A stretch of DNA of 37,325 bases from Prosthecobacter sp. (lineage in GTDB: Bacteria; Verrucomicrobiota; Verrucomicrobiia; Verrucomicrobiales; Verrucomicrobiaceae): contig NZ_JACSRD010000133.1 of NCBI RefSeq assembly GCF_014879935.1, positions 1 to 37,325 of the forward strand, given 5' to 3'. Under the pieces are notes generated by a model. That model was not told where the DNA came from. It worked only from the letters and a program-made list of their open reading frames with translations, and did not search any database. Below, in pieces: positions 2,499 to 33,746 of the stretch; position 1 is the stretch's first letter; each line of letters begins with the position of its first letter. A program made the position numbers and the translations under genes.

Positions 2499-5400
2499 AT
2501 GCCTGACTCCGACCCCGATCCTCTGTTTGGCAATCCCGCCAGCGATCTGATTCGCGGTGCCTTGGAAGGAGGCACGGGGACGAATCCTGGAGCCCCGTGG
2601 CAGCCGCCGGCTCCGGAGGTTTTGGAATCCTTGCTGCCGCAGTATGAGATCGAACGCATGCTGGGCCGCGGAGGCATGGGGGCGGTTTACAAGGGACGGC
2701 AGCTTTCGCTGGACCGGCCCGTGGCCGTCAAAATCCTCTCCAGCCATCTTGCGGGGACAGACCCAAGCTTTGTCGAGCGGTTCAAGAACGAGGCTCGCGC
2801 CATGGCGAAGCTCTCGCATCCTGGCATCGTCGCCGTTTATGACTTCGGCGAGGCTGCCGACGGCCTGCTCTACATCGTCATGGAGTTCGTCGAGGGCACG
2901 GACGTGCACGCCATGATCGCCCGTCAGGGCCGCCTGCACTCCGAGCATGCGATGGCGATCACCGCGCATGTGTGCGATGCGCTGGCCTATGCCCATGAGC
3001 GCGGGATCATTCATCGCGACATCAAACCGGCGAACATCATGCTCAGAAATGACGGCGTGGTGAAGGTGGCGGACTTTGGCCTGGCGAAGTTCCATGCGGA
3101 AGGTCGCGAGACCCAGGGGCTCACCCGCAGCGGGGTGGCGATGGGCACGCCTCACTTTGTGGCACCGGAGGCCTTGATCCTCGGCACGACCATCGATCAT
3201 CGCGCGGACATCTACGCCGTGGGCGTCATGCTCTACCAGATGCTCACCGGCAAGCTGCCACAGGGCCTGTTTGAGCTGCCCTCCCTGCAAATCCCCGGCC
3301 TCGACCCACGCTACGATGGCATCATCGGCCGTGCGCTGCGTGAAGATCGCGAGGTGCGCTACCCCAGCGTGCAGGACATGCGCCGGGATCTGGACGCGAT
3401 CCTCACGCAGCCCGTGGTCAAAGTGGAAGCCGCGGCGGAGAAAGCCCCTGCCGCGCTGCCCCCGCGTTCGCGTCCTCAGCCGTCGTCCGGGAAGCCAGAC
3501 CGTCCGGCCCCGGCCCAGTCCCTGCCTGCGTCACGACGGCACGCGTCCAGCATCGTGGGGTTTGCGATGGTGTGTCTGATCGTGTTGGCGAGCGCCGCAG
3601 CCTTTTACTTCCTGGTCATGGATCGCCCTGCGCCGACAGATTCATCGGCGCTGACGCCGCCAGGGGCTCAAAATGGAATGAGCCCCCTCGCGCAGCCCCC
3701 TGAGGCCACGCCATCCTCGACCGATCCCGTCCAGGCGACGAAGGACCAGCCCTTCGTGAATTCGCTCGGCATGAAGTTTGTGCCCATGCCGGGGACTGAC
3801 ATCCTCATGTGCATTCATGAGACCAGGAAGGGAGACTATGCCACCTACGCCGCTCAGAATGCCAACATCGATGAGACGTGGAAGAATCCGAACTATCGCG
3901 GCATTCCGGTCAGCCCAGGCGACGATCATCCCGTGTGCAATGTGAGCTGGGATGATGCCAAATCGTTCTGTGCCTGGCTGGGTCGGAAAGAAGGACTGAT
4001 CTACCGACTGCCAACGGACCGCGAGTGGAGTGCCGCTGTCGGAATTGCGGATTCGGAGCCCGCAGGAAAGACGCCCCTGGATTTGCAGCTCATGCAGTTC
4101 GAGTCAGGCGTGTACCCGTGGGGGACCGAATGGCCACCGCCGAAAGGCGCGGGCAATTTCTCCGACATCACCGCGAGCCAGGCCTTCCCCGCAGATACCC
4201 TGATTTCCTTCATTGAGGAGTATTCGGACGGGTATGCCGTCACATCGCCGGTCATGAACTTCAGACCCAACGCGCTTGGCCTTTTCGACCTGGCGGGGAA
4301 TGTCTATGAACTCTGCGAGGATTGGACGGCTGAAACCAAGCAGCATCGGGTGGTGCGCGGCACAAGTTGGAAGGGCAGCCTGGCCAGGGGGCTGTTGTCG
4401 TCGAACCGCGGCACTCACCGTCCGACTGCCAGGATTGATCACCATGGATTCCGAGTGGTGATCGAGCAGCCGATGAATCCGGCTGCTCTGAAAGCGGAGG
4501 CTGCTGTAGCGCCTGTGCGGCGGCCTGCTGCGCTTTCATCTGGCCAAACCACTTGGACGGACACCAAAGGCCGCAGCCTCACTGCCACCTTCAAAACCAT
4601 CGCCAGCGGCAACGTGCTCCTCGAAATCGCCGGCAAAATCACGCCCGTGCCGTTGAACACGCTCTCTGCAGAGAGCCAGCGCCTGGCGCGGGAACTGGAC
4701 GCGGGAGATCCGGCCAAGGCGGCCAAGGACAAGCCCTTCGTGAACTCTCTCGGCATGAAGTTTGTGCCCGTGCCGGGCACCGAGGTGTTGATGTGCATCC
4801 ACGAGACCCGGAAGGCAGACTACGCGGCCTTTTTCGCAGCCACTCCCGGAGTTCCCGACTTCTGGCAAAACCCGATCTATGAAGGAGAAAAAGTTAGTTT
4901 TGCGAACGATCATCCCGTCTGCAACATCCGGTGGGAGGATTGCCGGGACTTCTGCCAGTGGCTCAGCCGCAAGGAAGGACGCAACTACCGTCTGCCCACG
5001 GACCGTGAGTGGAGCTTCGCCGCGGGCATCGGGGATCGAGAGGATGCGAAGGTTTCACCCCACCTTCTGAGCGACAAGCTGACCGGCGAGTTTCCCTGGG
5101 GCCAAGAATGGCCGCCTCCCGCAGGTGCTGGGAATCTGGGTGACACGACCCTGGTGGCGAAGTTCCCCCAACGCCGCGTCATTCCCGGATACACCGACGG
5201 CTTTGCCACCACGGCTCCTGTCATGAGCTTCACCCCGAACCGGTTCGGCCTTCACGATCTGTCCGGGAATGTCTGGGAGTTCTGTGAAGACTGGTACGAC
5301 GACACGCATACGACGCATGTCATCCGCGGCCTCAATTTCGATGACGGTGGCGACATCAGCGTGCGTTTCTTGTCCAGCCATCGCGGCTGGTGTCCGGCAC

Positions 5401-5888
5401 CGAACCGCCATCCGAATCACGGCTTCCGCGTGGTGCTCGAACGGCCCGCCAAAACCGATGCCGCAGCATCCGGTGGCGGAGACAGCCGGGAAGATCCCGC
5501 AATGACTGAGTTGCTGGACTTTGAGCGGACGCTCCGCTCCCACACCTGGCTGATCCCGGAGCGCAACTGGGAACTCAGGTTCGAGAACGACCACCGGGCT
5601 TCCATTGACGAGCGGGTTTACACCACGCGCTGGCACTGGTGGGTCACCGGACCGCGGAGCCTGCATGTTCAGTTCGCCGCTTCACCGCCTTCCTACGATC
5701 CGAGCATCGGCTTCGAATACATCTTCGACAGGGAGATGAAGTCCTTCACCACCAGCACGGGAAAACCCACGGGCGTTCGGAGGAGCGCCCTGAAAGCACC
5801 AGAAGAGTCGGACTTGGGCCGATCCTTCGCGCCCGAATACGCAAAAAAACTCGGCAGCAGCCTGCGACCGCAGTTTCCCTCCCGGTAG
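2499..5888 (+). CDS. Transmembrane Ser/Thr protein kinase with two FGE/SUMF1-like domains
   Basis: This 1129-residue protein starts with a PknB-type kinase domain (about 49-302). The Gly loop is GRGGMG at 56-61, the ATP lysine K78, the catalytic loop HRDIKPAN at 172-179, DFG at 192-194 and APE at 222-224, so the kinase looks active. A Pro/Ala linker and one membrane helix (about 351-374) follow. Outside the membrane come an FGE/SUMF1 (C-type-lectin-like) domain (about 418-657), an SHD1-like segment (about 685-733), a second FGE domain (about 747-982) and a beta-rich tail (about 1003-1097). The first FGE domain lacks the paired catalytic cysteines of true formylglycine-generating enzyme, and the second keeps only one Cys (C965) near that place. 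They are therefore more likely binding modules than sulfatase-activating enzymes. By its layout this is a receptor-like kinase, with sensing outside and phosphorylation inside. Its ligand and substrates are unknown. Confidence 0.93.
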   Translation: MPDSDPDPLFGNPASDLIRGALEGGTGTNPGAPWQPPAPEVLESLLPQYEIERMLGRGGMGAVYKGRQLSLDRPVAVKILSSHLAGTDPSFVERFKNEARAMAKLSHPGIVAVYDFGEAADGLLYIVMEFVEGTDVHAMIARQGRLHSEHAMAITAHVCDALAYAHERGIIHRDIKPANIMLRNDGVVKVADFGLAKFHAEGRETQGLTRSGVAMGTPHFVAPEALILGTTIDHRADIYAVGVMLYQMLTGKLPQGLFELPSLQIPGLDPRYDGIIGRALREDREVRYPSVQDMRRDLDAILTQPVVKVEAAAEKAPAALPPRSRPQPSSGKPDRPAPAQSLPASRRHASSIVGFAMVCLIVLASAAAFYFLVMDRPAPTDSSALTPPGAQNGMSPLAQPPEATPSSTDPVQATKDQPFVNSLGMKFVPMPGTDILMCIHETRKGDYATYAAQNANIDETWKNPNYRGIPVSPGDDHPVCNVSWDDAKSFCAWLGRKEGLIYRLPTDREWSAAVGIADSEPAGKTPLDLQLMQFESGVYPWGTEWPPPKGAGNFSDITASQAFPADTLISFIEEYSDGYAVTSPVMNFRPNALGLFDLAGNVYELCEDWTAETKQHRVVRGTSWKGSLARGLLSSNRGTHRPTARIDHHGFRVVIEQPMNPAALKAEAAVAPVRRPAALSSGQTTWTDTKGRSLTATFKTIASGNVLLEIAGKITPVPLNTLSAESQRLARELDAGDPAKAAKDKPFVNSLGMKFVPVPGTEVLMCIHETRKADYAAFFAATPGVPDFWQNPIYEGEKVSFANDHPVCNIRWEDCRDFCQWLSRKEGRNYRLPTDREWSFAAGIGDREDAKVSPHLLSDKLTGEFPWGQEWPPPAGAGNLGDTTLVAKFPQRRVIPGYTDGFATTAPVMSFTPNRFGLHDLSGNVWEFCEDWYDDTHTTHVIRGLNFDDGGDISVRFLSSHRGWCPAPNRHPNHGFRVVLERPAKTDAAASGGGDSREDPAMTELLDFERTLRSHTWLIPERNWELRFENDHRASIDERVYTTRWHWWVTGPRSLHVQFAASPPSYDPSIGFEYIFDREMKSFTTSTGKPTGVRRSALKAPEESDLGRSFAPEYAKKLGSSLRPQFPSR

Positions 5889-9282: not shown

Positions 9283-10758
9283 TCAATGCTCGTAGCCGCC
9301 TTCGCCGTGTTCGGCGAGGTCGAGGCCGAGGCTTTCCACCTCCGGATCAGGACGCAGGCCGACGATGATCTTCACAATGATGGTGATGACCAGCGTGGCG
9401 GCGACGCTCCACACGATGGTGAGGCCGACGGCCTTGAGCTGTTCCATGAGCAGGCCGTCGAGGAGGCCCTCGATGCCTGGGTTGGCTTCCTTGCTGGCGA
9501 AGACGCCGGTGAGGATGGCTCCCAAGGTGCCGCCGACGCCGTGGACGCCGAAGGTGTCGAGGGCGTCATCGTAACCGAGCATCTTCTTCAGATAGGCGAC
9601 CGCGAGGAAGGGGATCACACCGGCGAGGACGCCGATGATGATGGAGGAGGTGGCGGTGACAAAGCCGGCACCCGGGGTGATGACGACGAGACCGGCGACG
9701 ATGCCGGAGCAGAAGCCGAGCACGGAGGGCTTGCCCTTGAGGATCCACTCCACCATGCCCCAGACGAAGCCTGCGGTGGCGGCGGCGAGCGTGGTGGTCA
9801 TGAAGGCGTTCGAGGCGATGCCGTCAGCACCGAGGGCGGAGCCGGCGTTGAAGCCATACCAGCCGACCCAGAGCATGCCGGTGCCGACGGCGCAGAGCAC
9901 CATGCTGTGCGGAGCCATCGGCTCCTTGCCGTAGCCCTGACGTTTGCCGAGGAGGATGCAGAGCACGAGGGCGCTCCAGCCGGAGGTCATGTGGACGACC
10001 GTGCCGCCGGCGAAGTCGATGGCCTTGATGGTGGCACCCGGATTGAGCGGGCCGCACATGAAGCCGGTCCCGCCCCACACCATGTGGGCGAAGGGGAAAT
10101 AGACGGCGAACATCCAGATCGCCACGAACAGCATGATGGAGATGAATTTCATGCGCTCCGCGATGGCGCCGACGATGAGCGCCGGGGTGATGATGGCGAA
10201 GCTGAGCTGGAACATGGCCCACATGGCATCCGAGATCCAGTGGTAGCCCGCGCCGGAGACATACGGGGAGACGCCTTTGAGCATGGCGTTGCCGAGGTCG
10301 CCGATGAAGGCGTTCCCTGCACCGAAGGAAAGGCTGTAACCGCAGGCCCACCAGAGGATGGTGACCATGCCGGCGATGCCCATGCACTGCGCGACGACGG
10401 AGAGGACGTTCTTTTTGCGGACCAGGCCGCCGTAGAACAGGAACAAGCCAGGAAGCGTCATGAAGATCACCAGCGCGGTGCTGGTCATCTGCCAGGCGTT
10501 GTGACCGGGGCCGGGGCCGGCGATCTTGGACTCCCACTTGGCGTCTCCGTCCTCACCCGGCTTCGAGTTGCCGACGTATTTCTCGAGGTCGATCACGCGT
10601 TGCTCGAGCGTGGGGCCTGCTGGTGCCGCCGGAGCAGCCGCGGCCGGAGCCGGTGGTGCGGCGGGGGCCGCGTCCTGGGCGCGGAGTCCAGCGCCGAGGA
10701 AGGTGGAGACGAGGAGACCGCACGCAAACGTGCGCCAGCGGGGCAGTAGTCGAGTCAT
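9283..10758 (-). CDS. amt: Ammonium transporter (Amt family), first copy
   Basis: This 491-residue inner-membrane channel conducts ammonium/ammonia. The ATG at 10758 is chosen because a signal peptide (MTRLLPRWRTFACGLLVSTF) starts there; the open frame runs further upstream only through the promoter region. After the signal comes an Ala/Pro-rich stretch (about 29-50) and a short helical segment, then about 11 membrane helices from residue 90. The twin pore histidines are visible as H256 (GGTVVHMTSG) and H406 (DTFGVHGVGG). The cytosolic tail ends in EHGEGGYEH. A second amt gene lies directly upstream on the same strand, but no glnB/glnK gene accompanies them in this window. The gene has its own sigma-54-type promoter at 10816-10830, so it is probably induced under nitrogen limitation. 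Confidence 0.95.
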   Translation of the reverse strand: MTRLLPRWRTFACGLLVSTFLGAGLRAQDAAPAAPPAPAAAAPAAPAGPTLEQRVIDLEKYVGNSKPGEDGDAKWESKIAGPGPGHNAWQMTSTALVIFMTLPGLFLFYGGLVRKKNVLSVVAQCMGIAGMVTILWWACGYSLSFGAGNAFIGDLGNAMLKGVSPYVSGAGYHWISDAMWAMFQLSFAIITPALIVGAIAERMKFISIMLFVAIWMFAVYFPFAHMVWGGTGFMCGPLNPGATIKAIDFAGGTVVHMTSGWSALVLCILLGKRQGYGKEPMAPHSMVLCAVGTGMLWVGWYGFNAGSALGADGIASNAFMTTTLAAATAGFVWGMVEWILKGKPSVLGFCSGIVAGLVVITPGAGFVTATSSIIIGVLAGVIPFLAVAYLKKMLGYDDALDTFGVHGVGGTLGAILTGVFASKEANPGIEGLLDGLLMEQLKAVGLTIVWSVAATLVITIIVKIIVGLRPDPEVESLGLDLAEHGEGGYEH

Positions 10759-10788
10759 TGCGAGATGATGGTTGGATGGGGGCCGAAA

Positions 10789-10841
10789 TTTTTTGGCCTG
10801 TTGGCACGGGGGAAAGCAATGCCCGTGCCAAGGCCAAAAAA
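10789..10841. repeat. Long inverted repeat overlapping the amt promoter
   Basis: TTTTTTGGCC (10789-10798) pairs with GGCCAAAAAA (10832-10841), and TTGGCACGGG (10801-10810) pairs with CCCGTGCCAA (10822-10831). Only TG at 10799-10800 bulges out, and the loop has 11 bases. The right arm contains the -24 box of the first amt gene. The A-run of the right arm also supplies the U-tract of the upstream gene's terminator. Confidence 0.85.
10816..10830 (-). promoter_or_regulatory. Sigma-54 (-24/-12) promoter of the first amt gene
   Basis: The minus strand reads TGGCAC GGGCA TTGC followed by TTT, a full match to the sigma-54 consensus TGGCAC-N5-TTGC. GG at 10829-10828 and GC at 10817-10816 are separated by exactly 10 bases. 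The start of transcription would fall near 10804, leaving a leader of about 45 bases. Confidence 0.85.
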
Positions 10842-10873
10842 AACTCCCCGACGCCTTTCGCGCCGGGGAGTTT
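10836..10873 (-). terminator. Intrinsic terminator after the second amt gene
   Basis: AAACTCCCCG (10841-10850) and CGGGGAGTTT (10864-10873) form a 10-bp stem with a 13-base loop. On the minus strand the stem runs into eight T residues. It lies just past the stop codon at 10907 and separates the two amt genes into independent units. Confidence 0.9.
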
Positions 10874-10906
10874 GTGGAGTTTGTCAGACGTGTCGTGAGA
10901 CCAGGA

Positions 10907-12373
10907 TCAATGGTTCGCCTGGAAGCTCGGGTAAGCCACGTTGCCGTGCTCGCCGATGTCGAGACCCTCGGATTCCTCCTCGGGGCTGACACGCAGACCC
11001 ATGACGATCTTGAGGATCAGCAACAGGACGAAGGCGAAGACGAAGGTGAACACGCCGTAGGCGGCCACACCCTTGAGCTGGCTCATGAGCTGCGGCATGC
11101 CGGCCTTGGCACCGAAGATGCCGACTGCCAGCGTGCCCCAGATGCCGCACACGAGATGGACGGACACGGCACCGACGGGATCGTCGATCTTGATCTTGTC
11201 AAAGAACAGCACGGAGAGCACGACCAGCACACCTGCGATGGCACCGATGTAGATGGAGCTCGCAGCAGCCATCTGGTCAGCGCCGGCGGTGATGCCCACG
11301 AGACCGGCGAGGATGCCGTTCAGAGCCATGGAGAGGTCCGGCTTCTTCATGAAGATGACGGAGGCGAGGGCGGCGGCGACACCACCCGCGGCAGCGGCGA
11401 GGCACGTCGTGACGAGGGTCAGGGAGACGAGGCCCGGATCAGCGGAAAGGACGGAGCCGCCGTTGAATCCGAACCAGCCGAGCCAGAGGAGGAACACGCC
11501 GATGGTGGCGAGGGGCATGCTGTGACCGAGGATCGGCTTGATCTTGCCATCCGCGGTGTATTTGCCCAGACGAGGCCCAAGGAGAAGAATGCCTGCAAGG
11601 GCGCCCCAGCCGCCGACAGAGTGCACCAGCGTGGAACCGGCGAAGTCATAGAACGGAGTCTCAAGGCGGTTCAGCCAGCCGTTGCCCCACTTCCAGCTTC
11701 CTGCGATCGGGTAGGCGATGGCGACGAAGATGATGGAGAACACCATGAAGGTGCTGAGCTTCACGCGCTCGGCGACAGCGCCGGAGACGATGGTGGCGGC
11801 GGTCGCGGCGAACATGGCCTGGAAGAGGAAGTCGGTCCAGTAGGTGTAGCCCACGTTGTAGCTGGAGGTCACACCGGCGGCATCGGTCGTGATGCCGAAG
11901 CCGGAGAATTTGAACCAGAACTGCGAATCACCATCGGCGAAGCCGGGATACATCAGATTGAAACCGCAGAGCGCATACGTGAGCAGGCCGATGCAGGGAA
12001 TGAGGGTGTTCTTGAACAGGATGTTCACCGTGTTCTTGGACTGGGTGAGACCGGACTCAACGCAGGCGAAACCCAGGTGCATGATGAACACGAGCGCGGC
12101 CGAAAGCATCATCCACAGGTTGTTTGTGGTGAAGAGTTCGGTGGAGGGACCCTTCGCCTCCTCGGCGGGGGCTTCGGCAGGTGCCGCGGGTGCAGGTGCT
12201 GGCGCGGCTGCGGGAGCCGGGGCTGGTGCCGCGGGGGCGGCGGCCGCGGCGGGCGCAGGCGGTGCTGCATCCTGCGCCTGGAGTTCACCAAGGCTGAATG
12301 CGAGGGACGAGAAGGCGGCGAGGGCTGTCATGACGACGCCGCTCCAGTTTCGAGTGGGTGTGTGCTTGAGCAT
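10907..12373 (-). CDS. amt: Ammonium transporter (Amt family), second copy
   Basis: This 488-residue ammonium channel starts at the ATG at 12373, just downstream of a sigma-54 promoter; the open frame extends further upstream only through the promoter. The N-terminus carries a hydrophobic signal-like segment (about 11-34), then an unusually long Ala/Pro low-complexity stretch (about 35-75), then the membrane core from about residue 85. The pore histidines are H251 (GSTLVHSVGG) and H406 (AVSVHLVCG). The cytosolic tail contains EGLDIGEHG, much like the first copy. The two proteins are clearly diverged within the membrane core, so they are old paralogues rather than a fresh duplication. Different affinities or partners are possible but not visible in the sequence. 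Confidence 0.95.
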   Translation of the reverse strand: MLKHTPTRNWSGVVMTALAAFSSLAFSLGELQAQDAAPPAPAAAAAPAAPAPAPAAAPAPAPAAPAEAPAEEAKGPSTELFTTNNLWMMLSAALVFIMHLGFACVESGLTQSKNTVNILFKNTLIPCIGLLTYALCGFNLMYPGFADGDSQFWFKFSGFGITTDAAGVTSSYNVGYTYWTDFLFQAMFAATAATIVSGAVAERVKLSTFMVFSIIFVAIAYPIAGSWKWGNGWLNRLETPFYDFAGSTLVHSVGGWGALAGILLLGPRLGKYTADGKIKPILGHSMPLATIGVFLLWLGWFGFNGGSVLSADPGLVSLTLVTTCLAAAAGGVAAALASVIFMKKPDLSMALNGILAGLVGITAGADQMAAASSIYIGAIAGVLVVLSVLFFDKIKIDDPVGAVSVHLVCGIWGTLAVGIFGAKAGMPQLMSQLKGVAAYGVFTFVFAFVLLLILKIVMGLRVSPEEESEGLDIGEHGNVAYPSFQANH

Positions 12374-12409
12374 AGGTCTGTAGTTGGATGGACTCCGACG
12401 CGAAGCAAA

Positions 12410-12424
12410 GCATCGTGCGTGCCA
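12410..12424 (-). promoter_or_regulatory. Sigma-54 (-24/-12) promoter of the second amt gene
   Basis: The minus strand reads TGGCAC GCACG ATGC followed by TTT. This differs from TGGCAC-N5-TTGC at one base. GG (12423-12422) and GC (12411-12410) are separated by exactly 10 bases. The start would lie near 12399, giving a leader of about 25 bases before the ATG at 12373. Confidence 0.78.
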
Positions 12425-12477
12425 ACTCGGTTTTCGATTTGGCAAACGCGTGATGCACGGCGGTGTCATTCCATCGG

Positions 12478-13143: not shown

Positions 13144-13608
13144 TTATTTCGTGACGTGCATCACGCCACGCATGAGCATCCAGTGGCCGGGGAAGGTGCA
13201 GATGTACGGGTAGTCGCCCGCTTCCGCCGGAGCCACGAATTCAATGGTCTCGGACTGGTTCGGCTGCACCAGCTTCGTGTTGGCGAGGATGTCGGCTCTC
13301 GCGGCCTCGGGGATGTAGTTCTTCGCCATGCCCTGGGGATCGGCGAGCATCGCGTTGGCCTGGGCTCCCACGGAGTCCAGCTTGCCCGGCTTCAACAGGA
13401 GGAAATTGTGTGGCTGCGGGGCGATGCTGCCCGTGTTGGTGAGCGTGAGCTTCACCTTCTGGCCCGCCTTCACGGCGAGTTCCGTTTTGTCATAGCCCAG
13501 CGGGTTTTGCGGGTGGGGCTTCAGTTCGAGAACGGCCTGATCCGCATCCTGCGCGAGGGCGGGGAGGGACATGGCGGCGAGAAGGGCGAGGAGGCAGATG
13601 TGCTTCAT
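13144..13608 (-). CDS. Azurin/plastocyanin-like cupredoxin
   Basis: This is a 154-residue secreted type-1 copper protein, a small periplasmic electron carrier. The ATG at 13608 is chosen because the signal peptide (MKHICLLALLAAMSLPALAQ) begins there. The copper ligands can be placed by azurin spacing: H67 (QPHNF), C137 (YICTF), H142 and M146 (PGHWMLMRG), with Cys+5=His and His+4=Met as in azurin. The length and the insertion between residues 75 and 115 also fit azurin-type cupredoxins. Its redox partners are not in the window. The small secreted protein downstream is probably in the same operon. Confidence 0.92.
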   Translation of the reverse strand: MKHICLLALLAAMSLPALAQDADQAVLELKPHPQNPLGYDKTELAVKAGQKVKLTLTNTGSIAPQPHNFLLLKPGKLDSVGAQANAMLADPQGMAKNYIPEAARADILANTKLVQPNQSETIEFVAPAEAGDYPYICTFPGHWMLMRGVMHVTK

Positions 13609-13795
13609 GGGGGTTAGGGTGGGTTTTTGGCGGAAGCCTGTAATCGGGCTTTGGCAGCCGCAGTTTTCAACCATTACTTCGCCAAAAGCGGGGCGAGCCA
13701 TGGAGCCGGCCGCAGGGCGGTGAAGACAGGTTATCATAACACAGGGTTCACTTGCCAGACGTGCGAGGTCAGGCCGTGGCGGACGTTTTCACCAC

Positions 13796-16501
13796 ATGTC
13801 CAGCCTCTCCCACGCCTTGCTCCTCGTCATCGCCGCCACGATTTCTGCCGCCGCGCAGCCTGCGTCGAAGATGCCGGATCGTTTCACTCCTTCCGTCATC
13901 ACGAATCCTGGCGCGGAGTTTCAAGACGAGGCACGCGGTGGCGCGATGATCATTGGGATGGACCGCACGCCGAAGGGGCGCATCTGGGGTTGCTGGACAG
14001 GCACGGGGGACAAGCATGATGGGTATTTCCTGCTGGCGACGAGCGATGATGACGGCGCGACGTGGTCGAAGCCTCGTGTGGCGGTCGGCGCACGCATGGA
14101 GGCGGCGCAGAAGGTCAGCGGGGCGCTGGTGGGGAATCTTTGGACGGATCCAAAGGGGCGCTTGTGGCTGTTTCTCGATCAGCAACTCGGCGATCCGCAG
14201 AAGCGCATCACGAATTGGTTCATGCGCTGCGATGATCCCGATGCGGCGGAGCCATCGTGGAGCACGCCGGCGATGTTTGCGGAGGGTTGCACGCTGAACA
14301 AGCCGACGGTGCTCAAAGATGGCACGTGGTTGCTGCCGGTATCCGACTGGCACAAGAAAACGTGCCGCGTGTTTGAATCGACCGATGAAGGCGCGTCGTG
14401 GAAGGAGCGCGGCAGTTTGCAGTTCCCGGATTGGGAGTTCGACGAGCACATGATGGTCGAGTTGAAGGACGGTCGCTTGTGGATGCTCGCCCGCACGAAG
14501 GGCCAGCCGCATGAGAGCTTCTCCAGCGATGGCGGCAAAACGTGGAGCGAGCCGAAACCTGCCGCGACGGTGCAAAATGTGAATGCTCGTTTTTTTCTGC
14601 GTCGGCTCAAATCAGGTCGCATCTTGCTGGTGAAGAATGGCTCGCCCACGGAGCGACTGCCAAAGCGCACCCACATGAGCGCGTGGCTGTCCGAGGACGA
14701 GGGCCAGACGTGGAAAGGCGGCCTGCTGCTCGACGAACGCAACGCGGTGTCGTATCCCGATGGCTTCGAAGCGCCCGATGGGCTGATCCACATCCTCTAT
14801 GACTGGAACCGGCACACCGACGCGGAGATCCTGCTGGCGAAGTTTCGCGAGGAGGATGTTCTGGCGGGCAAAATCGTGTCGAAGGACGCGAAGCTGCTCA
14901 TGCTCGCGAACAAGGCCACCGGCCCAAAGCCCGAAAAGCTCTACAACGGCATCGAACTGCCCGATCAATGGCCGCCGCGTTACCGCGAGCCGAGCGATGC
15001 GGTGATGGAAGTGCCGTATTTGAAGAAGAAGCCGAAAGTCATCCCCATCGACCTCGGCAGGCAGCTTTTCGTCGATGACTTCCTCATCGAGAAAACCACG
15101 CTCAAACGCACATTTCATCAGGCGAAGAAGTTTGAGGGCAATCCGGTCTTCAAAGCCGAGACCGAGCGCGAACTCGGACCCGCGAGAGAAGGTGAGAAGG
15201 GCGAGGAAGCGACCACTTTCACCGGTCAGGGCGGCGTGTTTTACGATCCATCGGAAAAGCTCTTCAAGATGTTCTACGTCGCTGGTTGGCGCGGGGCGTT
15301 GTCGCTTGCGACGAGCCCAGACATGAAGACGTGGACGCGCAAAGGGCAGCTTTTGCCCGAAGGACTGCGCTGGACCGGACCGAAGCTCGTCACGGGCGGC
15401 TCCGATAACTGCGTGTGGCTCGATTTGAATGCCAAATCACCCGCGGAGCGCCTCAAATACATCACCTGCTGGCTACATGTGCCGAAGGAGCAGCGGCCGC
15501 AGGGCTTCATGCACTCGCTGCATGTCTCCGATGGCAAAACGTTCTCCGATGCGGTGACGACGACCATCGCGGCGGATGATTACTGCTCCTTCTTCTTCAA
15601 TCCCTTCCGCGAGAAGTGGTGCTTCAGCATCAAGATCGGCACCTCACGCGGTCGCAGCCGTTATTATTGCGAGAGCGATGATTTCCTCGCGGGAGCGGAC
15701 TGGAAGAAGAGCGTGTTTTGGACCTGCACGGACAAACTCGATCTCCCCGAGCCGCAGGGTCGCTATCCCGGCGCGGGCGAGGCTGCGCAGCTCTACAGTC
15801 TGAATGCGGTGGCCTACGAAAGCCTCATGGTCGGCATGCATTACATCCATCGCGGCCCGAACAACGGCGTCTGCGAGAAAGGTAAATTCCCGAAGCTACT
15901 CGATCTCGAGCTCGGCTTCAGTCGCGATGGCTTTCACTGGGATCGGCCGGATCGACGCGGCTTCATCGTCGGATCGCGCACGGAGGGCTCGTGGGATCGT
16001 GCGTATCTGCACGGCGCGGCGGGTGTGTTTGTCGTGCTCGATGACCAACTCGTCTTTCCCTACATGGGCACCAGCGGCATCGCGCCGAGCGGGCATCGCG
16101 GCATGTATACCGGCGGTAGCATTGGCCTCGCCACACTGCGGCGCGATGGTTTTGCCTCGATGGATGGCTCTGGCGAGCTGACGACGCGTCCGGTGAAGTT
16201 CAAAGGCAGGCATCTCTTCGTGAATATGAACGGCGAGGTGCGTGTGGAAGTGCTCGATGAGGCTGGAAAGGTGCTGCGTAGCTCCAAAGTGGCTTCGGGG
16301 GATCAAACGAAGCTGAAGGTGGAATGGGCTGACGGTATTGACCTTACAGACCTGATTGGGAAGACGGTGAAATTGCGCTTCCATCAGTCGAAGGGCTCGT
16401 TGTATGCCTTCTGGGTCACGCCGGATGAAAAAGGCACCAGCGGCGGCTACGTCGGCGCGGGTGGGCCGCAATTTGATGGCGTGCGTGATACTTCCAAATG
16501 A
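13796..16501 (+). CDS. Secreted Asp-box (sialidase-like) plus five-blade-propeller glycosidase-like protein
   Basis: This 901-residue protein has a signal peptide (about 1-21). The N-terminal half (about 30-375) is a sialidase-type propeller with four Asp boxes: SDDDGATW (83-90), STDEGASW (195-202), SSDGGKTW (243-250) and SEDEGQTW (299-306), plus the stretch SYPDGFEAPDGL. The FRIP motif of classical GH33 sialidases is not seen, so sialidase activity is uncertain. The second half (about 415-900) begins IPIDLGRQLFVDDFLIEK and includes GNPVF and GGVFYDPSEKLFKMFY. These are typical of GH32/GH43-like five-bladed propellers with a C-terminal beta-sandwich. It is thus a fusion of two propeller domains. 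It heads a four-gene operon with a transporter, a kinase and an aldolase, which suggests it releases the sugar or sugar acid used by that pathway. Confidence 0.82.
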   Translation: MSSLSHALLLVIAATISAAAQPASKMPDRFTPSVITNPGAEFQDEARGGAMIIGMDRTPKGRIWGCWTGTGDKHDGYFLLATSDDDGATWSKPRVAVGARMEAAQKVSGALVGNLWTDPKGRLWLFLDQQLGDPQKRITNWFMRCDDPDAAEPSWSTPAMFAEGCTLNKPTVLKDGTWLLPVSDWHKKTCRVFESTDEGASWKERGSLQFPDWEFDEHMMVELKDGRLWMLARTKGQPHESFSSDGGKTWSEPKPAATVQNVNARFFLRRLKSGRILLVKNGSPTERLPKRTHMSAWLSEDEGQTWKGGLLLDERNAVSYPDGFEAPDGLIHILYDWNRHTDAEILLAKFREEDVLAGKIVSKDAKLLMLANKATGPKPEKLYNGIELPDQWPPRYREPSDAVMEVPYLKKKPKVIPIDLGRQLFVDDFLIEKTTLKRTFHQAKKFEGNPVFKAETERELGPAREGEKGEEATTFTGQGGVFYDPSEKLFKMFYVAGWRGALSLATSPDMKTWTRKGQLLPEGLRWTGPKLVTGGSDNCVWLDLNAKSPAERLKYITCWLHVPKEQRPQGFMHSLHVSDGKTFSDAVTTTIAADDYCSFFFNPFREKWCFSIKIGTSRGRSRYYCESDDFLAGADWKKSVFWTCTDKLDLPEPQGRYPGAGEAAQLYSLNAVAYESLMVGMHYIHRGPNNGVCEKGKFPKLLDLELGFSRDGFHWDRPDRRGFIVGSRTEGSWDRAYLHGAAGVFVVLDDQLVFPYMGTSGIAPSGHRGMYTGGSIGLATLRRDGFASMDGSGELTTRPVKFKGRHLFVNMNGEVRVEVLDEAGKVLRSSKVASGDQTKLKVEWADGIDLTDLIGKTVKLRFHQSKGSLYAFWVTPDEKGTSGGYVGAGGPQFDGVRDTSK

Positions 16502-16505
16502 TCTC

Positions 16506-17438
16506 ATGAAGCGCTTCTTCGACTGGTTCAACAATCTGTATCCCGTGTGGCTCGTCACGCTGGCTGTCATCGCGTTTTACAAACCGCAGACGATGCTGTG
16601 GTTCGACAAGCCGTGGATTTTTTGGTCGCTGGCGGCGTCGATGCTCGGCATGGGGCTCACTTTGAGTCTGGACGACTTCAAAGCCATCGGCCGCATGCCG
16701 GGGTGTGTCGCGCTGGGCTTCATCGCGCAGTACACGATCATGCCACTCGCCGGTTGGGCCACGGCGAAGATGCTCGGTTTGGAGCCAGGCCTCGCCGTGG
16801 GCATCATTCTGGTGGCGAGTTGCCCCGGCGGCATGGCGTCGAACATGATCAGCTACCTCGCCAAAGCGAACGTGGCCCTGTCTGTGGTGCTCACGATGTG
16901 CTCCACGCTGCTGGCCTTTTTCTTCACGCCGATGTGGACGAGCACGCTCGCAGGCCAGTATGTGCCCGTGGACGCGTGGGGGTTGTGTGTATCCGCTTTT
17001 CAACTCACCATCGCGCCGGTGGTGCTCGGCATATTGATCCGATGGCGGCTACCGCGCACGGCGGATCAAATCGGAGCCTGCGGACCGACGGTGGCCGTGC
17101 TGGCCTTCACGCTCGTGAGCGGAGGCATCGTGGCGGCCAGCGCGGACGCCATCGCGGCGAATTTCGGCAAGCTGGCTCTGGCAGCCTTTGCGCTGCATGT
17201 GCTCGGCTTTGGCGTGGGGTATGGCCTGACGAAGATGCTGCGTTATCCTGAGTCCATCGCCCGCACGGTCAGCATTGAGGTCGGCATGCAAAACGGTGGC
17301 ATGGCAGCCTCACTCGCCCGTGAGCACTTTGCGGCGATGCCGCTCGCCGCCGCCGCAGGTGTCTTCAGTGGCGTGATGCAAAACATCATCGGAGGCATCG
17401 CCGCCGCCATCTGGAAGCGTCGTCCACCCTCCGCATGA
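16506..17438 (+). CDS. BASS-family (bile acid:sodium symporter-like) transporter
   Basis: This 310-residue inner-membrane protein has about nine to ten membrane helices. The ATG at 16506, four bases after the preceding stop, is chosen over an upstream in-frame start inside the previous gene. Family features are ASCPGGMASNMISYLAKAN, which lines the sodium/substrate site in BASS proteins, and VGMQNGGMAASLA near the C-terminus. Members import organic anions such as bile acids, pyruvate or pantoate with sodium. The gene sits between a secreted glycosidase-like protein and a kinase/aldolase pair and overlaps the kinase start by four bases (ATGA). A role in importing the released acid is therefore likely (inference). 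Confidence 0.88.
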   Translation: MKRFFDWFNNLYPVWLVTLAVIAFYKPQTMLWFDKPWIFWSLAASMLGMGLTLSLDDFKAIGRMPGCVALGFIAQYTIMPLAGWATAKMLGLEPGLAVGIILVASCPGGMASNMISYLAKANVALSVVLTMCSTLLAFFFTPMWTSTLAGQYVPVDAWGLCVSAFQLTIAPVVLGILIRWRLPRTADQIGACGPTVAVLAFTLVSGGIVAASADAIAANFGKLALAAFALHVLGFGVGYGLTKMLRYPESIARTVSIEVGMQNGGMAASLAREHFAAMPLAAAAGVFSGVMQNIIGGIAAAIWKRRPPSA

Positions 17439-18499
17439 ACCGCCGCGACATCTATTACTGGAAATGTGACCGCACGGCGGCCTTTCACGGCACCCAGTCG
17501 CGTGGTGAAGCGGATGCGAATCTGGCCGCGCAGCTCGAAAAGGAGCTATGTAGGCACTTTGACACGAAAAACGTCGTTTTGAGCCCTGGAGCCGGTCAGG
17601 GCAACCATCTCACGTGGAATGCTGAAGTGGATGGAAAGCCGCTTTTCGTCCGCGTGGAGAATGGACCCGAAAAAGACGCGCATCTGGCCGTGGAGTCGGC
17701 ATTGCTGGATCGTGTGCGTGCGGCGGGGGTGGTCACGCCTCGTGTGTTTGGCTGCGATGCCTCGCGGATTCGTGTTTCGTTCGCCTGGCAGGCTTTGGAG
17801 CGAGTTTCAGTGCCGGATTTGAATCACTGGTTCAAACAAGGCACGCTGGAGGTGCCGAAGATCGCCTTCGAGATCGGCGCGGCGGTGGCAAAGTGGCAGG
17901 CGATCACATTGGAGGGCTTTGGAGTGCTGGATGAGCAGCTTCGCGGCTATCGCACGACTTACGCCGACTACTTCCACCTGCGTCTCGATGATCATCTGCG
18001 CTTTTTGACGCAGCGCGGCTTTTTGGCGAATGCGGATGAGATTCGGGCGGAGATTGAGAGCCATCGTGCGCTGCTACAACTCGAACACGGCTGCCTCGTG
18101 CACAAAGACCTCGCGCTTTGGAACATCCTCGGCATTCGCGATCAAATCGCTGCCTTCATTGACTTTGATGACAGCATTGCGGGCGATCCGATGGATGACT
18201 TGTCCCTGCTGGCGTGTTTTCATGATGCAGCGTTTTTGCGCAGGGCCTTCGAGGGCTATCAAAGCGTGCGTGAATTGCCACAGCATCATCTTCAGCGTTT
18301 CTGGCTGCACTTGCTGCGAAACATGATCGTGAAAGCGGTCATCCGCGTCGGAGCGGGCTACTTTGATCGCGACGACGGCTTCTTCCTCATCAGCAGCGGT
18401 TCCTCAGGCTCAAACCTGCGTGAAATCACTCTTTCCAAGCTGGCCATCGCTTTACGCGGCTTGCGGGAGGACAGCGGCCTCGACATTCTCTCACCATGA
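17435..18499 (+). CDS. APH-fold small-molecule kinase
   Basis: This 354-residue protein is of the aminoglycoside phosphotransferase/choline kinase fold. The catalytic (Brenner) loop is HKDLALWN (223-230), with D225 as base and N230 as metal ligand; the DFG-like metal site is IDFDD (242-246). In the N-lobe the usual ATP-binding lysine position reads FVRVENG, with Arg in place of Lys. An antibiotic-resistance role is unlikely, because the gene is embedded in a catabolic-type operon with ATGA overlaps at both ends. It probably phosphorylates a sugar or sugar-derived alcohol/aldehyde made in the pathway (inference). Confidence 0.82.
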   Translation: MNRRDIYYWKCDRTAAFHGTQSRGEADANLAAQLEKELCRHFDTKNVVLSPGAGQGNHLTWNAEVDGKPLFVRVENGPEKDAHLAVESALLDRVRAAGVVTPRVFGCDASRIRVSFAWQALERVSVPDLNHWFKQGTLEVPKIAFEIGAAVAKWQAITLEGFGVLDEQLRGYRTTYADYFHLRLDDHLRFLTQRGFLANADEIRAEIESHRALLQLEHGCLVHKDLALWNILGIRDQIAAFIDFDDSIAGDPMDDLSLLACFHDAAFLRRAFEGYQSVRELPQHHLQRFWLHLLRNMIVKAVIRVGAGYFDRDDGFFLISSGSSGSNLREITLSKLAIALRGLREDSGLDILSP

Positions 18500-19209
18500 A
18501 AACTCACATCGGCACCTTTCTCTCCATCGGATCACCCGCAGTCACGGAACTCGCGGCAGAGTGTGGCTTTGACTGGGTTCTCATCGACTTGGAGCACGGT
18601 TGTGAGTCGGAGGCCGCGCTGCCAAACCAACTGCGTGCGTTGCGAGGCAGCAACACGCTGGCGATTGTGCGCGTGAGTGCTCCGCATGCCGATTTGATCG
18701 GTCGCGTTCTCGATTGGGGCGCGGATGGGATCATGGTGCCGCATGTGGACACCGTGGCGCAGGCAGAGCATTGTGTGAAAGCAGCGACCTATCCACCAAA
18801 CGGCACGCGAGGCGTTTCACGTACCGTGAGGGCCTATGGCTACGGCATGAGGCTCCCCGGCGAGGAGATGCCCAAACCGATCATCCTCGCGCAAATCGAG
18901 ACGGCGGAAGGCGTGGCGAATGCGGAGCAAATCGCCGCGGTGGAGGGCATTGATGCGCTCTTCATCGGCCCGGCCGATTTGAGCTACGATTTGAAGGCGC
19001 GGAAGTCGCCGCGCAGCTACGACGAGTGCCTGAACGCCGTCGTGAAGGCGGCGAAGGATCACGGCAAAGGCTGCGGCATCCTCGTGCGGCATGCGGATGA
19101 CAAGGAAAAGCTCAAGGCACTGGGCCTGACGTGGATCGCGATGGATTCCGACCTCTCGCTGGTGCGCGAGGGATTCAAACGGAACCTGGAGACGGCGCGG
19201 AGCTGGTGA
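18496..19209 (+). CDS. HpcH/HpaI-family aldolase
   Basis: This 237-residue class II pyruvate aldolase is of the HpaI/2-keto-3-deoxy-rhamnonate aldolase family. These enzymes split 2-keto-(3-deoxy) acids into pyruvate and an aldehyde using a divalent metal. Expected active-site residues are present: H34 (LEHG), R59 (VRV), metal ligands E135 (AQIETAEG) and D161 (GPADLS). The length is slightly shorter than the usual ~255. It is the last gene of the operon, overlaps the kinase stop by four bases and converges on the thioredoxin-like gene at 19213. The true substrate cannot be read from the sequence. A sugar-derived 2-keto acid fits the context. Confidence 0.9.
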   Translation: MKTHIGTFLSIGSPAVTELAAECGFDWVLIDLEHGCESEAALPNQLRALRGSNTLAIVRVSAPHADLIGRVLDWGADGIMVPHVDTVAQAEHCVKAATYPPNGTRGVSRTVRAYGYGMRLPGEEMPKPIILAQIETAEGVANAEQIAAVEGIDALFIGPADLSYDLKARKSPRSYDECLNAVVKAAKDHGKGCGILVRHADDKEKLKALGLTWIAMDSDLSLVREGFKRNLETARSW

Positions 19210-19212
19210 GGC

Positions 19213-19725
19213 TCATTTCGTGAGCTCGGCCACCTTGGCGGCAAGTGCCTCAAAGGAGAGCCTGTCAGCATTGCTCTTGCCGACATAACGGAAGACTTCC
19301 TTGCCATCGGGACCGATCAGGATGGTGGCGGGGAAGTGCACGGTCTGGCCGTGAAAATTGTAGCCATCGGGAATGTCGAAGGCTTTCGCGAGTTTCGCAT
19401 AAGGATCGCGGTAAATCGGATTCTTGGCGAGGTCCTCGGCAGGCAGTTTGGACGCCCAGGCCTCGATTTCGCGGTCGGAGTCCGGCTTGAGGAAAATCTG
19501 CGTCACGTTGGGCAGTGTCGCGGATTTGGCGAAGTAGTCGCGGGTGTGCTTCAGGCACAGCGGGCATTCGGTTTTGAGCAGGAAATGAAGCGCGACAAAT
19601 TTCCCACGCGCTTCCTTCAGCGTGAAGCTGCCTTTTCCAGCCGCTGCACGCACGGTGAAGTCCTCGGGTGGGGCGGCGGAGACGATGGAAGTGAGGAGGA
19701 GCAGGGCGCTGAGGAGATGTTTCAT
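19213..19725 (-). CDS. Secreted thioredoxin-fold (AhpC/TSA-type) protein
   Basis: This 170-residue protein has a signal peptide (MKHLLSALLLLTSIVSA), so it is a periplasmic thioredoxin-fold protein. The redox motif is CPLC (C54-C57) in HFLLKTECPLCLKH. The cis-proline segment appears as VHFPATILIGPDGK. The layout matches peroxiredoxin/TlpA-like proteins, but the second Cys three residues after the first is more like a thiol-disulfide oxidoreductase than a one-Cys peroxiredoxin. It is a single gene, divergent from the YlbF-family gene at 19811 and convergent with the aldolase. Confidence 0.85.
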   Translation of the reverse strand: MKHLLSALLLLTSIVSAAPPEDFTVRAAAGKGSFTLKEARGKFVALHFLLKTECPLCLKHTRDYFAKSATLPNVTQIFLKPDSDREIEAWASKLPAEDLAKNPIYRDPYAKLAKAFDIPDGYNFHGQTVHFPATILIGPDGKEVFRYVGKSNADRLSFEALAAKVAELTK

Positions 19726-31611: not shown

Positions 31612-32187
31612 TCACCTCAGCCTCTCCACCAGCCGATAAACCCACGTCGCCTGCTCATCCGGCCACTTCGCATCGGGTTCAGTATCCAGCTCTTTGGCTC
31701 GCTCACAGGCTTGGAGCACCAGCGGCATCAGCTTCAAGGCATCATAGTCGCCTTTGGCAAACTCCGGCCACTCGCGGCAGAGACTGCGCTGGCAATCGTG
31801 GCGATCCGCGAAAGGACGGTTGGGCTTCAGGTGTAGCCAGAGCCAAAGTTCAAAGCACGGATTGCTGAGCGCGAGGTGGTAGTTGTCGTGTTTTGCGATC
31901 TCACGGCTGACTTCATCGAGTTCGGAGGCGCTCCACGCATCGCGATCGATCACGGCCCAGTATTCGGTGTTCGGGCCTTCAAGTTTGCGGCGTTCGTAGT
32001 CGATCAGACGTTGCAGAACATCGCGTGGCCGGGATTTGTGATTGGGGTTTGGCAAGACTTTGAGACGAAAGCCTCCATCTCGGCCGGGCTTGAACGGCAA
32101 AAAGTAGATCCTCTCCGTCTCCGCCCCTTCAGAAGCGACCACGAAAAGACGCTTCGTCTTTTTGAATCCAGACCGCCGGCCTCTCAT
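31612..32187 (-). CDS. rloB: RloB-like protein, TOPRIM-type partner (AbiLii-like)
   Basis: This 191-residue protein is of the RloB family. Family marks are FVVASEGAETERIYF (about 15-29), with E20 in the first acidic position, the DxD-type motif VIDRDAW (80-85) and NPCFELWLWLHL (109-120). Together these resemble the acidic residues of TOPRIM folds. RloB proteins are encoded next to RloA-type ATPases at restriction and defence loci, and the AbiL abortive-infection system of Lactococcus has the same pair. Here the start overlaps the end of the ATPase gene by four bases, so the two are translated together. A nuclease or other toxic activity released on phage infection is likely but not shown. Confidence 0.85.
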   Translation of the reverse strand: MRGRRSGFKKTKRLFVVASEGAETERIYFLPFKPGRDGGFRLKVLPNPNHKSRPRDVLQRLIDYERRKLEGPNTEYWAVIDRDAWSASELDEVSREIAKHDNYHLALSNPCFELWLWLHLKPNRPFADRHDCQRSLCREWPEFAKGDYDALKLMPLVLQACERAKELDTEPDAKWPDEQATWVYRLVERLR

Positions 32188-33632
32188 GCCTTCTTCCCCC
32201 GCGAGGTTTTGTAGGCAGCGGATTCTTCATTCAGACGAAAAGCCTCTTCCGGTGGAGTTTCGTATTCATGACGCCGCTTCATCAAAAAGGGACTCAAATG
32301 TGGCACTCCTGAAAAACGACCGCTGAGATACGCCTTCCGCACGTCCTTGTCATAGCGCACCTCCTTATAGTCGGAGAGGCTCTCCAGCAGCGTCTCGCCG
32401 TGCTTCCCGCGCTCGATGAACCACATCTCGTCCCGCCGCAGCAGCGCCTGATCCATCAGCAGCACGTCGTGCGTCGTGAAAATGAGCTGCGTGCGCGTGT
32501 CCTTGCTCCGCGTGCCGTTGTAGTGCTCCAGCAGCGCCTCGGTGAGCTGCGTGTGCATCGAGCGATCCAGCTCGTCGATCACATACACGCGGCGGCAGCC
32601 CGGCGTGGCCAGATCGTGAAACACCGGCGACAAGTCAAAGAGCCGCAGCGTCCCGTCGCTCTCATCGCTCGTCTCAAAGGGCACCTTCTTGCCCTCCTTC
32701 GAGTCGCGATAGGTCACGATGCGCCGCGCCATCAGCTCGCCATCTTTGGGAAACACGCGGAACCGCGCCCCTCCGTCCGAGCGCAGGATGATTCCCGCGT
32801 CGTCTTCCTTCAAAGTGGAGCGCAGCTCGTCCTGCACCTGCTTCGGCATGCCGATTCCGGCCACCGGCACATCCACCGCCTCGATGCCTACGATGCCCGT
32901 GTCCGCACGATTCAGGATGCTCACGGTGAAATCCCGCAGGTCCTGCCGCTCCGCCTCCTGCACCCGCAGCGAGAGGTAATCATCATTCGGCCCCAGCACC
33001 ACGAGCTGGTCGCGGAACCAGCGAAACACCGGTGCCAGCACCGTCACATTGCGATCCATCGCCTCATGCAGGAAGAGCTGGTTCGGCTTCGTGCCCTTCG
33101 CCACGAACTTCGCAAACAGCCGCTCCTCCTCCGGCACCGCACGCCGCTCCCACCAGTCCAGGCTGAAGACATGCTCCACCGCGCCGTCCGCGCCCGGCTT
33201 CCGGCTGAAAAACACCTTCTCCGACACCACCCGGATCTCCGTCAGCGATTCCTCCACCACCTCGCGACCGTTCACGGCAAAGACGTAGCGAAACACCCGC
33301 TCCTCGCCCTCCGCCTCCACCACGATCTCAAACTCAAAGCGGCTCGGCTCCTTCGCCGCGTCCTCGCGCAGCCTGAAGGGAATGCGCCCCGTCGGCCCGT
33401 CCGCCCGCGTGCCGATCACGACCATGTGCTTCGCATACTCCAGCACGCGGCAAAGGTTCGATTTCCCCGAGGCATTCCCGCCCCAGATCGCCGCCGTCTG
33501 CAGCACCCGCTCCGGCATGGATTCCCCCTCCGCGACCCGCCCCAGATGCTGCGACTCCTTGGAAGCCAGCATAGAAAACTCGACCGGGGTGTCGATGGAA
33601 AGGAAGTTGGAGGCGTGGAGACGAAGGAGCAT
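32184..33632 (-). CDS. rloA: RloA-like AAA/ABC-type ATPase (AbiLi-like)
   Basis: This gene encodes 482 residues from the ATG at 33632 (MLLRLHASNFLS...), the usual start of this family; a further 37 upstream codons are AT-rich promoter-like DNA. The Walker A motif is GGNASGKSN (51-59), the signature-like segment SDGTLRLFDL (325-334), Walker B VYVIDELD (349-356) and the switch histidine TTHD (386-389). This is the AAA_21/OLD-like SMC-type ATPase group, which senses or gates a partner nuclease in systems such as RloAB/AbiL, PARIS and Gabija. It forms an operon with the RloB-like gene. The flanking intergenic DNA is AT-rich compared with the window, which fits horizontal transfer. Confidence 0.88.
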   Translation of the reverse strand: MLLRLHASNFLSIDTPVEFSMLASKESQHLGRVAEGESMPERVLQTAAIWGGNASGKSNLCRVLEYAKHMVVIGTRADGPTGRIPFRLREDAAKEPSRFEFEIVVEAEGEERVFRYVFAVNGREVVEESLTEIRVVSEKVFFSRKPGADGAVEHVFSLDWWERRAVPEEERLFAKFVAKGTKPNQLFLHEAMDRNVTVLAPVFRWFRDQLVVLGPNDDYLSLRVQEAERQDLRDFTVSILNRADTGIVGIEAVDVPVAGIGMPKQVQDELRSTLKEDDAGIILRSDGGARFRVFPKDGELMARRIVTYRDSKEGKKVPFETSDESDGTLRLFDLSPVFHDLATPGCRRVYVIDELDRSMHTQLTEALLEHYNGTRSKDTRTQLIFTTHDVLLMDQALLRRDEMWFIERGKHGETLLESLSDYKEVRYDKDVRKAYLSGRFSGVPHLSPFLMKRRHEYETPPEEAFRLNEESAAYKTSRGKKA

Positions 33633-33746
33633 GATTTTTATCGCAAAATGGTGTTCCAAATCACTTATAACGCAATAAAATGTCATTTTCCGAGTTTTTT
33701 TCTCTAAAACATGTTTTTCTTTTTGAGATACCATTAACGCCATGCA
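33633..33746. promoter_or_regulatory. AT-rich divergent spacer between rloA and the MBL gene
   Basis: These 114 bases are much richer in A/T than the surrounding DNA, with runs such as GAGTTTTTTTCTCTAAAAC. They must contain the start signals of both the RloAB operon and the ComEC-like gene. No single promoter can be assigned with confidence. Confidence 0.5.

Follow-up and report, generated by a model that had tools for sequence, protein, structure and literature searches.

A conserved four-gene operon of Prosthecobacter as a candidate scavenging system for a 2-ulosonic acid, analogous to the nan operon and built largely from other enzyme families

In the 37,325-nucleotide stretch of Prosthecobacter sp. 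DNA analysed here (assembly GCF_014879935.1, contig NZ_JACSRD010000133.1; hereafter the window), four consecutive plus-strand genes encode a secreted sialidase-type propeller protein, a BASS-family transporter, an APH-fold kinase and an HpcH/HpaI-family aldolase. We read these genes as a scavenging operon that resembles the sialic-acid (nan) operon and serves a 2-ulosonic (2-keto-3-deoxy) acid, probably not N-acetylneuraminic acid (Neu5Ac); whether this reading is right is, in our judgement, about an even call. The identities of the genes, their intact catalytic residues, their conserved linkage and the lack of any NanA or NanE match over cut-off are set out below.

Gene 1 (13796..16501) encodes a 901-residue, two-module protein, in which a signal peptide, as judged by eye, is followed by a sialidase-type propeller and a second half. 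A 4-base gap separates its stop codon from the ATG of gene 2 (16506..17438; 310 residues), which encodes a BASS-family sodium symporter related to ASBT_NM and PanS. Gene 3 (17435..18499; 354 residues) encodes an APH-fold small-molecule kinase of its own subfamily (YWKCDRPAAFHG...HKDLALWN), and gene 4 (18496..19209; 237 residues) encodes a class II aldolase of the HpcH/HpaI family; the junctions of genes 2 and 3 and of genes 3 and 4 are both ATGA overlaps. The first-pass annotation of this DNA had placed the same four genes, with the 4-base gap and the two overlaps, and Pfam agrees with it in assigning BNR_2, SBF, APH and HpcH_HpaI, each at a score far over its cut-off. It had also recognized gene 1 as coding for a secreted propeller, but overlooked the second half of the protein (residues ∼405–901).

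The conservation of the operon was analyzed in two sets of sequences. Co-presence was tallied in 68 genomes of the family, with the aldolase counted at E up to 1e-70; gene order was read on 90 loci, which comprise the best 80 of 178 relatives from a scan of genome contigs and 10 of 40 family loci. The loci and the 68 genomes draw in part on the same sources, which makes the two tallies interdependent; two of the 80 relatives come from one bin. Denominators for the loci count those in which room was present or the gene was seen, which gives a slight bias toward presence; partial genes were scored as present (the aldolase in L104, the BASS gene in L125 and L143). Of the 68 genomes, 59 have the kinase and 58 the aldolase. 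Both are present in 58 genomes and neither in nine; one genome has the kinase only, none has the aldolase only, and the lone kinase (genome G038) is a match of 19 residues at the start of a contig. In 56 of the 58 genomes the pair lies less than 1 kb apart on one contig, and in the other two (G022 and G048) the genes are on different contigs. This co-presence rules out a coincidence at a single locus. Of the 90 loci, 84 have the aldolase gene within 1.5 kb after the kinase gene; the BASS gene precedes the kinase in 71 of 86, and a propeller gene occurs anywhere on the same strand in 64 of 75. All four genes are present on 55 of the 90 loci, a set with many loci truncated at the end of a contig. 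The first-pass annotation had staked its reading in part on conserved co-occurrence of the four genes, and co-occurrence is what was found. The nearest relatives of the locus carry the titles Verrucomicrobiaceae and Prosthecobacter, and further loci lie under record titles naming other Verrucomicrobiota and Planctomycetota; statements on phyla are approximate, as the titles Akkermansia, Klebsiella, Burkholderiales and Hyphomicrobiaceae look like doubtful bin labels.

Some relatives carry additional sequence within the operon. A protein of ∼290 residues lies between the transporter and the kinase in L077, L078, L094, L096 and L061 (L061:5389-6273; L037:6679-7137), and a Pfam scan of the L061 copy identified no family. 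An insert of ∼0.8–0.9 kb lies between the kinase and the aldolase in L101, L103, G033, G034 and G002; in L101 (L101:8110-8859) and L103 it contains a 250-residue frame on the other strand.

The propeller module of gene 1 (residues 31–385; 13886..14950) matches Pfam BNR_2 with an E-value of 3.8e-33. With a profile built from 28 sequences (the window and 27 of 63 listed hits), GH33 sialidases were the best sequence matches (1.2e-17), at ∼20% identity. The predicted model of the protein has a mean predicted local distance difference test score of 64; the propeller half is better and the second half is poor. In the 3D comparison of this model, the 50 entries listed have Z-scores of 28.1–30.5; sialidases or neuraminidases account for 49 of them, some under the bare title NanC, and the remaining one is the designed protein 4j9t. 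The match to 1w8o (Z 30.5, 295 residues, 2.6 Å) predicts a sialidase propeller fold. E217 and Y320 align to the catalytic Glu/Tyr pair of GH33 and R233 and R291 to two of its three arginines, and D72 occupies the acid/base position. The 90 loci gave 70 propeller hits that score over 380 bits; E217, R233, R291 and Y320 are kept in every one of them, as are R265, R315, D336 and R339. The second half (residues 405–901; 15008..16498) showed no convincing Pfam family in 17 members (best E 0.015, in three members). It gives GH32 chain matches of 1.5e-5 that cover only ∼55 of 501 profile positions, together with weaker GH130 and GH43 matches.

The gene 4 product matches Pfam HpcH_HpaI (PF03328) with an E-value of 1.8e-38 (132.5 bits against a cut-off of 25). 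Its residues H34, R59, Q133, E135 and D161 align to the catalytic positions H50, R75, Q151, E153 and D179 of the GarL active site. Among the best aldolases per locus over the score threshold (n = 83), Q133 is kept in 82 and the other four in all 83.

The gene 2 product matches Pfam SBF (6.8e-40; 137.2 bits against a cut-off of 24.3) and aligns to ASBT_NM over nearly its full length (2.7e-57). The equivalents of ASBT_NM Ser114, Asn115, Glu260, Gln264 and Asn265 are kept in all 69 relatives, counting the best BASS protein per locus over the score threshold. PanS membership was rejected, the protein scoring 207.3 of the 400 bits needed (NCBIfam). In water, ulosonic acids are mostly cyclic and carry a hydroxyl at C2. 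As a cyclic ulosonic acid offers both a carboxylate and a C2 hydroxyl, a site of the BASS type could accept it. PMC10645422 describes the carboxylate and the 2-hydroxyl as the groups by which pantoate binds, and reports no binding of ketopantoate.

The only Pfam match of the gene 3 product at E up to 0.1 is APH (PF01636; 1.9e-15; 57.7 bits against a cut-off of 23.2). Both the HxDxxxxN and the DxD motif are intact, and H223, D225, N230, D243 and D245 are kept in all of the best kinases per locus over the score threshold (n = 90). The closest folds to the predicted model are those of FN3K, APH(4) and methylthioribose kinase (Z ∼22), enzymes that act on sugar-like hydroxyls. Naming a substrate from the fold was abandoned, as the comparison returned a broad list of APH proteins and no substrate.

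NanA (TIGR00683) gives no match over cut-off in the 68 family genomes; weaker matches of the DHDPS family are present in 67. NanE (PF04131) likewise gives none over cut-off in the 68, with weak matches in two; six of 14 control genomes are over cut-off. Without NanE, a Neu5Ac route would stop at N-acetylmannosamine-6-phosphate.

Put together, the scavenging pathway that we favour would run as follows. The propeller, a putative secreted exo-hydrolase of the sialidase fold, would free the acid from a glycan, and the other module of gene 1 may trim that glycan. The symporter would import the acid in a sodium-coupled manner, through its carboxylate and C2 oxygen; the aldolase, which is probably metal-dependent, would split it into pyruvate and an aldose; and the kinase would phosphorylate the resulting aldose for central metabolism. 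The substrate, the order of the steps and the product of the pathway are what we infer here. That the operon frees, imports and splits a 2-keto-3-deoxy acid and then phosphorylates the sugar had been proposed in the first-pass annotation, and part of the proposal stands: the genes behave as one conserved unit, the propeller is predicted to have the sialidase fold, the aldolase residues are intact and the transporter belongs to a family for small 2-oxygenated acids. Two points qualify it. Ordinary sialic acid is improbable in view of the arginine discussed next, and the enolase of a second operon in the genome favours a three-carbon substrate for the kinase.

Several observations weigh against the scavenging reading, and some of them feed rival explanations. 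The arginine of the RIP motif is found in none of the 70 propellers; its position (M51 in the window) is Met in 44, Gly in 20, Cys in five and a gap in one. The missing arginine suggests that the substrate is probably not an ordinary sialic acid. R339, which is invariant and lies 19 residues past Tyr320, could stand in for the missing third arginine; alternatively, this could be R47, which lies four residues ahead of the RIP position and is Arg in 57 of 70. The acid/base column is also variable, with Asp in 44 of 70, Pro in 18, Glu in seven and a gap in one. The Glu/Arg/Arg/Tyr set recurs in at least two more BNR_2 proteins of this genome (L158 and L163), which makes it informative but not unique to the operon; further BNR_2 proteins of the genome lack some residues of the set, and many were matched only in part. 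The source genome also holds a gene of the GlcNAc (N-acetylglucosamine) 2-epimerase family; because of this gene, Neu5Ac is best called an unlikely substrate, for which a route is conceivable. Moreover, contig C151 (L194:1911-11237) carries a cluster of a DHDPS/NAL-family aldolase with three BNR_2-type proteins, two GH32 proteins and an AraC regulator, possibly an acid-sugar cluster of a more ordinary kind.

The best-surviving rival is a keto-deoxy aldonate or aldarate pathway, in which a GarL-like split of a C6 2-keto-3-deoxy acid would yield pyruvate and a C3 aldehyde, the kinase would act on a C3 compound (glyceraldehyde or glycerate) and the propeller would be a glycosidase that feeds the pathway without releasing an ulosonic acid itself. 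We regard this as possible, and clearly less probable than ulosonic-acid scavenging. It draws on the aldolase, whose best-scoring models are GarL and HpaI, a further point against our reading, though both are far under their cut-offs: 159 of 393 and 154.4 of 406.75 bits with the two GarL NCBIfam models and 154.7 of 368.8 bits with HpaI, so that membership of either was rejected. It draws further on a second operon of the same genome, on contig C96 (L193:4113-13371). This operon encodes an RraA-like protein, a BNR_2 protein, an HpcH/HpaI aldolase, a BNR_2-GDSL protein, a ceramidase-like protein (a weak match, below cut-off), another APH kinase, an enolase directly after it, and a phosphoesterase. 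Its kinase is found in 16 of the 68 family genomes, the source genome and 15 others, and the operon was read in eight of those 15. Seven of these eight further loci contain the enolase, and six contain the aldolase and the first propeller; two (L218 and L222) have the kinase and enolase without the aldolase. Enolase uses 2-phosphoglycerate, and its place beside the second-operon kinase suggests that this kinase makes a phosphoglycerate-like product, which favours the C3 explanation for the window operon too. The window operon itself contains no enolase, dehydratase or dehydrogenase, and its propeller is sialidase-like; both speak against a C3 pathway. The combination of a propeller, an HpcH/HpaI aldolase and an APH kinase in two different operons, on the other hand, supports a pathway.

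In another explanation, the kinase, aldolase and BASS transporter form a separate pathway, for example for the salvage of small hydroxy or keto acids, and the propellers are no more than common neighbours in genomes with many BNR_2 proteins. The source genome does have 31 matches to PF13088 (BNR_2), some of which are pieces of one frame; 11 of 75 loci carry no propeller; and the kinase is as widespread in the family as described above (59 of 68). Pairwise distances of the kinase correlate with those of the aldolase (r 0.65) and the BASS protein (r 0.73), and poorly with those of the propeller (r 0.30, using the best-scoring propeller per locus, which is not always the orthologue); the last value is unfavourable to our reading as well. 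The difference suggests that the intracellular core is stable and that the secreted part is exchanged. In some loci the propeller is arranged otherwise, for instance as two BNR_2 units, or with one before the BASS gene and another after the aldolase. The core itself is not invariable: in six of 90 loci the kinase has no aldolase within 1.5 kb, and some of these kinases lie beside other transporters, again to the disadvantage of the scavenging reading. Where the aldolase or the BASS gene is missing, the neighbours of the kinase include TctC, TauD, MFS, LysR, ParB, GH130-like, aldose 1-epimerase and ABC-type proteins. Of these replacement neighbours, only an aldose 1-epimerase directly ahead of the kinase in one locus (L144) and an MFS and GH130-like pair in another (L146) bear on sugars. 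Against a separate core stand the same-strand propeller on 64 of 75 loci, the propeller gene four bases from the transporter gene in the window, and the two further clusters of the genome that combine BNR_2 proteins with an aldolase; we hold this explanation to be unlikely.

The weakest rival puts phosphorylation first: the imported keto-deoxy acid would be the substrate of the kinase, and its phosphorylated form that of the aldolase, following the logic of the Entner–Doudoroff pathway. It fits a kinase gene that precedes the aldolase gene and that occurs without it in the six loci mentioned, but GarL, HpaI and RhmA of the HpcH/HpaI family take unphosphorylated substrates, and we consider it improbable.

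Within the scavenging reading, a narrower proposal can be made tentatively, and we think it rather doubtful: that the operon salvages Kdo (3-deoxy-D-manno-octulosonic acid) or a close non-amino ulosonic acid, such as Dha (3-deoxy-D-lyxo-heptulosaric acid) or KDN (2-keto-3-deoxynononic acid), from bacterial lipopolysaccharide or from algal or plant cell walls. A Kdo route would lead to D-arabinose and then to D-arabinose 5-phosphate. The source genome has a D-arabinose-5-phosphate isomerase-type gene (305.5 bits against a cut-off of 203.7), so an exit is available. Gram-negative bacteria need this isomerase for lipopolysaccharide anyway, and the gene is therefore merely permissive for a Kdo route. 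If a reading of the Kdo type is true, gene 4 would give a sequence to Kdo aldolase (EC 4.1.2.23); gene 3 would represent a new family of D-arabinose kinases, or of kinases for the matching aldose; and gene 1 would represent a new family of ulosonic-acid hydrolases with an altered arginine set. EC 4.1.2.23 stands, marked 'difficult', in a 2007 list of orphan activities (PMC1940265). In the open-access literature we found no paper that gives this activity a gene, and nothing on this operon.

If the broader scavenging reading is true, the same kind of acid-sugar pathway has been assembled from non-orthologous enzymes, a part of the sialidase superfamily so far unassigned gains a function, and three assayable enzymes are at hand. 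With the kinase and aldolase in 58 of the 68 family genomes and in loci titled as other Verrucomicrobiota and as Planctomycetota, the operon would point to a widespread food source that annotation has missed.

The source genome is 7.7 Mb in 286 contigs, and the window is part of contig C275. The nearest genes on either side of the operon, a cupredoxin-like one at 13144-13737 and a redoxin-like one at 19213-19725, are both on the opposite strand; thus the operon consists of the four genes only. Elsewhere in the window are two adjoining ammonium transporters (9283-12469, minus strand), FGE-sulfatase-type domains fused to a protein kinase (2499-5888), and an RloB-like and AAA_21 pair (31612-33743, minus strand), a type of pair known from defence-like loci.

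Like the GH33 sialidases, for example those of Bacteroides (BTSA, 4bbw) and Micromonospora (1eur), gene 1 has the propeller fold, Asp boxes, the Glu/Tyr pair and two arginines; different from them, it lacks the RIP-motif arginine, has the invariant R265, R315, D336 and R339, and is fused to a second half. In the GH181 sialidase Amuc_1547 (AmGH181), E218 and R234 align to E217 and R233 of gene 1. PMC10067855, which tells in part which GH33 residues are catalytic, describes Amuc_1547 as also lacking one canonical arginine; there, Q350 replaces the tyrosine, and Q367, 17 residues past the tyrosine equivalent, replaces the third arginine. Gene 1 retains Tyr320, with R339 19 residues past it, and GH181 membership was ruled out, since GH181 has His-Gln at the tyrosine, which is kept in 70 of 70 propellers here. 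The transporter keeps the sodium- and substrate-site residues Ser114, Asn115, Asn265 and Gly267 of ASBT_NM, but has Met for Thr112 and Gln for His294. The kinase shares the APH fold with fructosamine-3-kinase, APH(4)-Ia and methylthioribose kinase, at only 12–22% identity, and has in addition the conserved N-terminal segment YWKCDRPAAFHG, for which the analysis gave no link to a named family. The aldolase is of the same fold family as the class II pyruvate aldolases GarL, HpaI and RhmA and has the same catalytic residues, yet its scores stay under half of the cut-off of every one of these NCBIfam equivalogs; with RhmA, for which membership was likewise rejected, it scores 115.6 of 441 bits.

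The closest parallel to the operon as a whole is the canonical nan operon, in which a sialidase, an importer (NanT, or one of the TRAP or SSS type), the lyase NanA, the epimerase NanE and the kinase NanK act on sialic acid. Membership among ordinary sialic-acid operons was rejected, as three steps are served by other families and neither NanA nor NanE is over cut-off in the family genomes. The importer is a BASS protein, and the operon contains no NanE-type epimerase. In place of a NanA-type lyase (PF00701) it has the PF03328 protein of gene 4, and no ROK-family NanK is present, the kinase matching PF01636 APH alone. The functional analogy is kept: exo-hydrolase, importer, pyruvate aldolase and sugar kinase appear in the same order of roles in both systems. 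Such a correspondence of roles, with the last three enzymes non-orthologous, had been noted in the first-pass annotation; none of the 68 genomes has NanA or NanE over cut-off.

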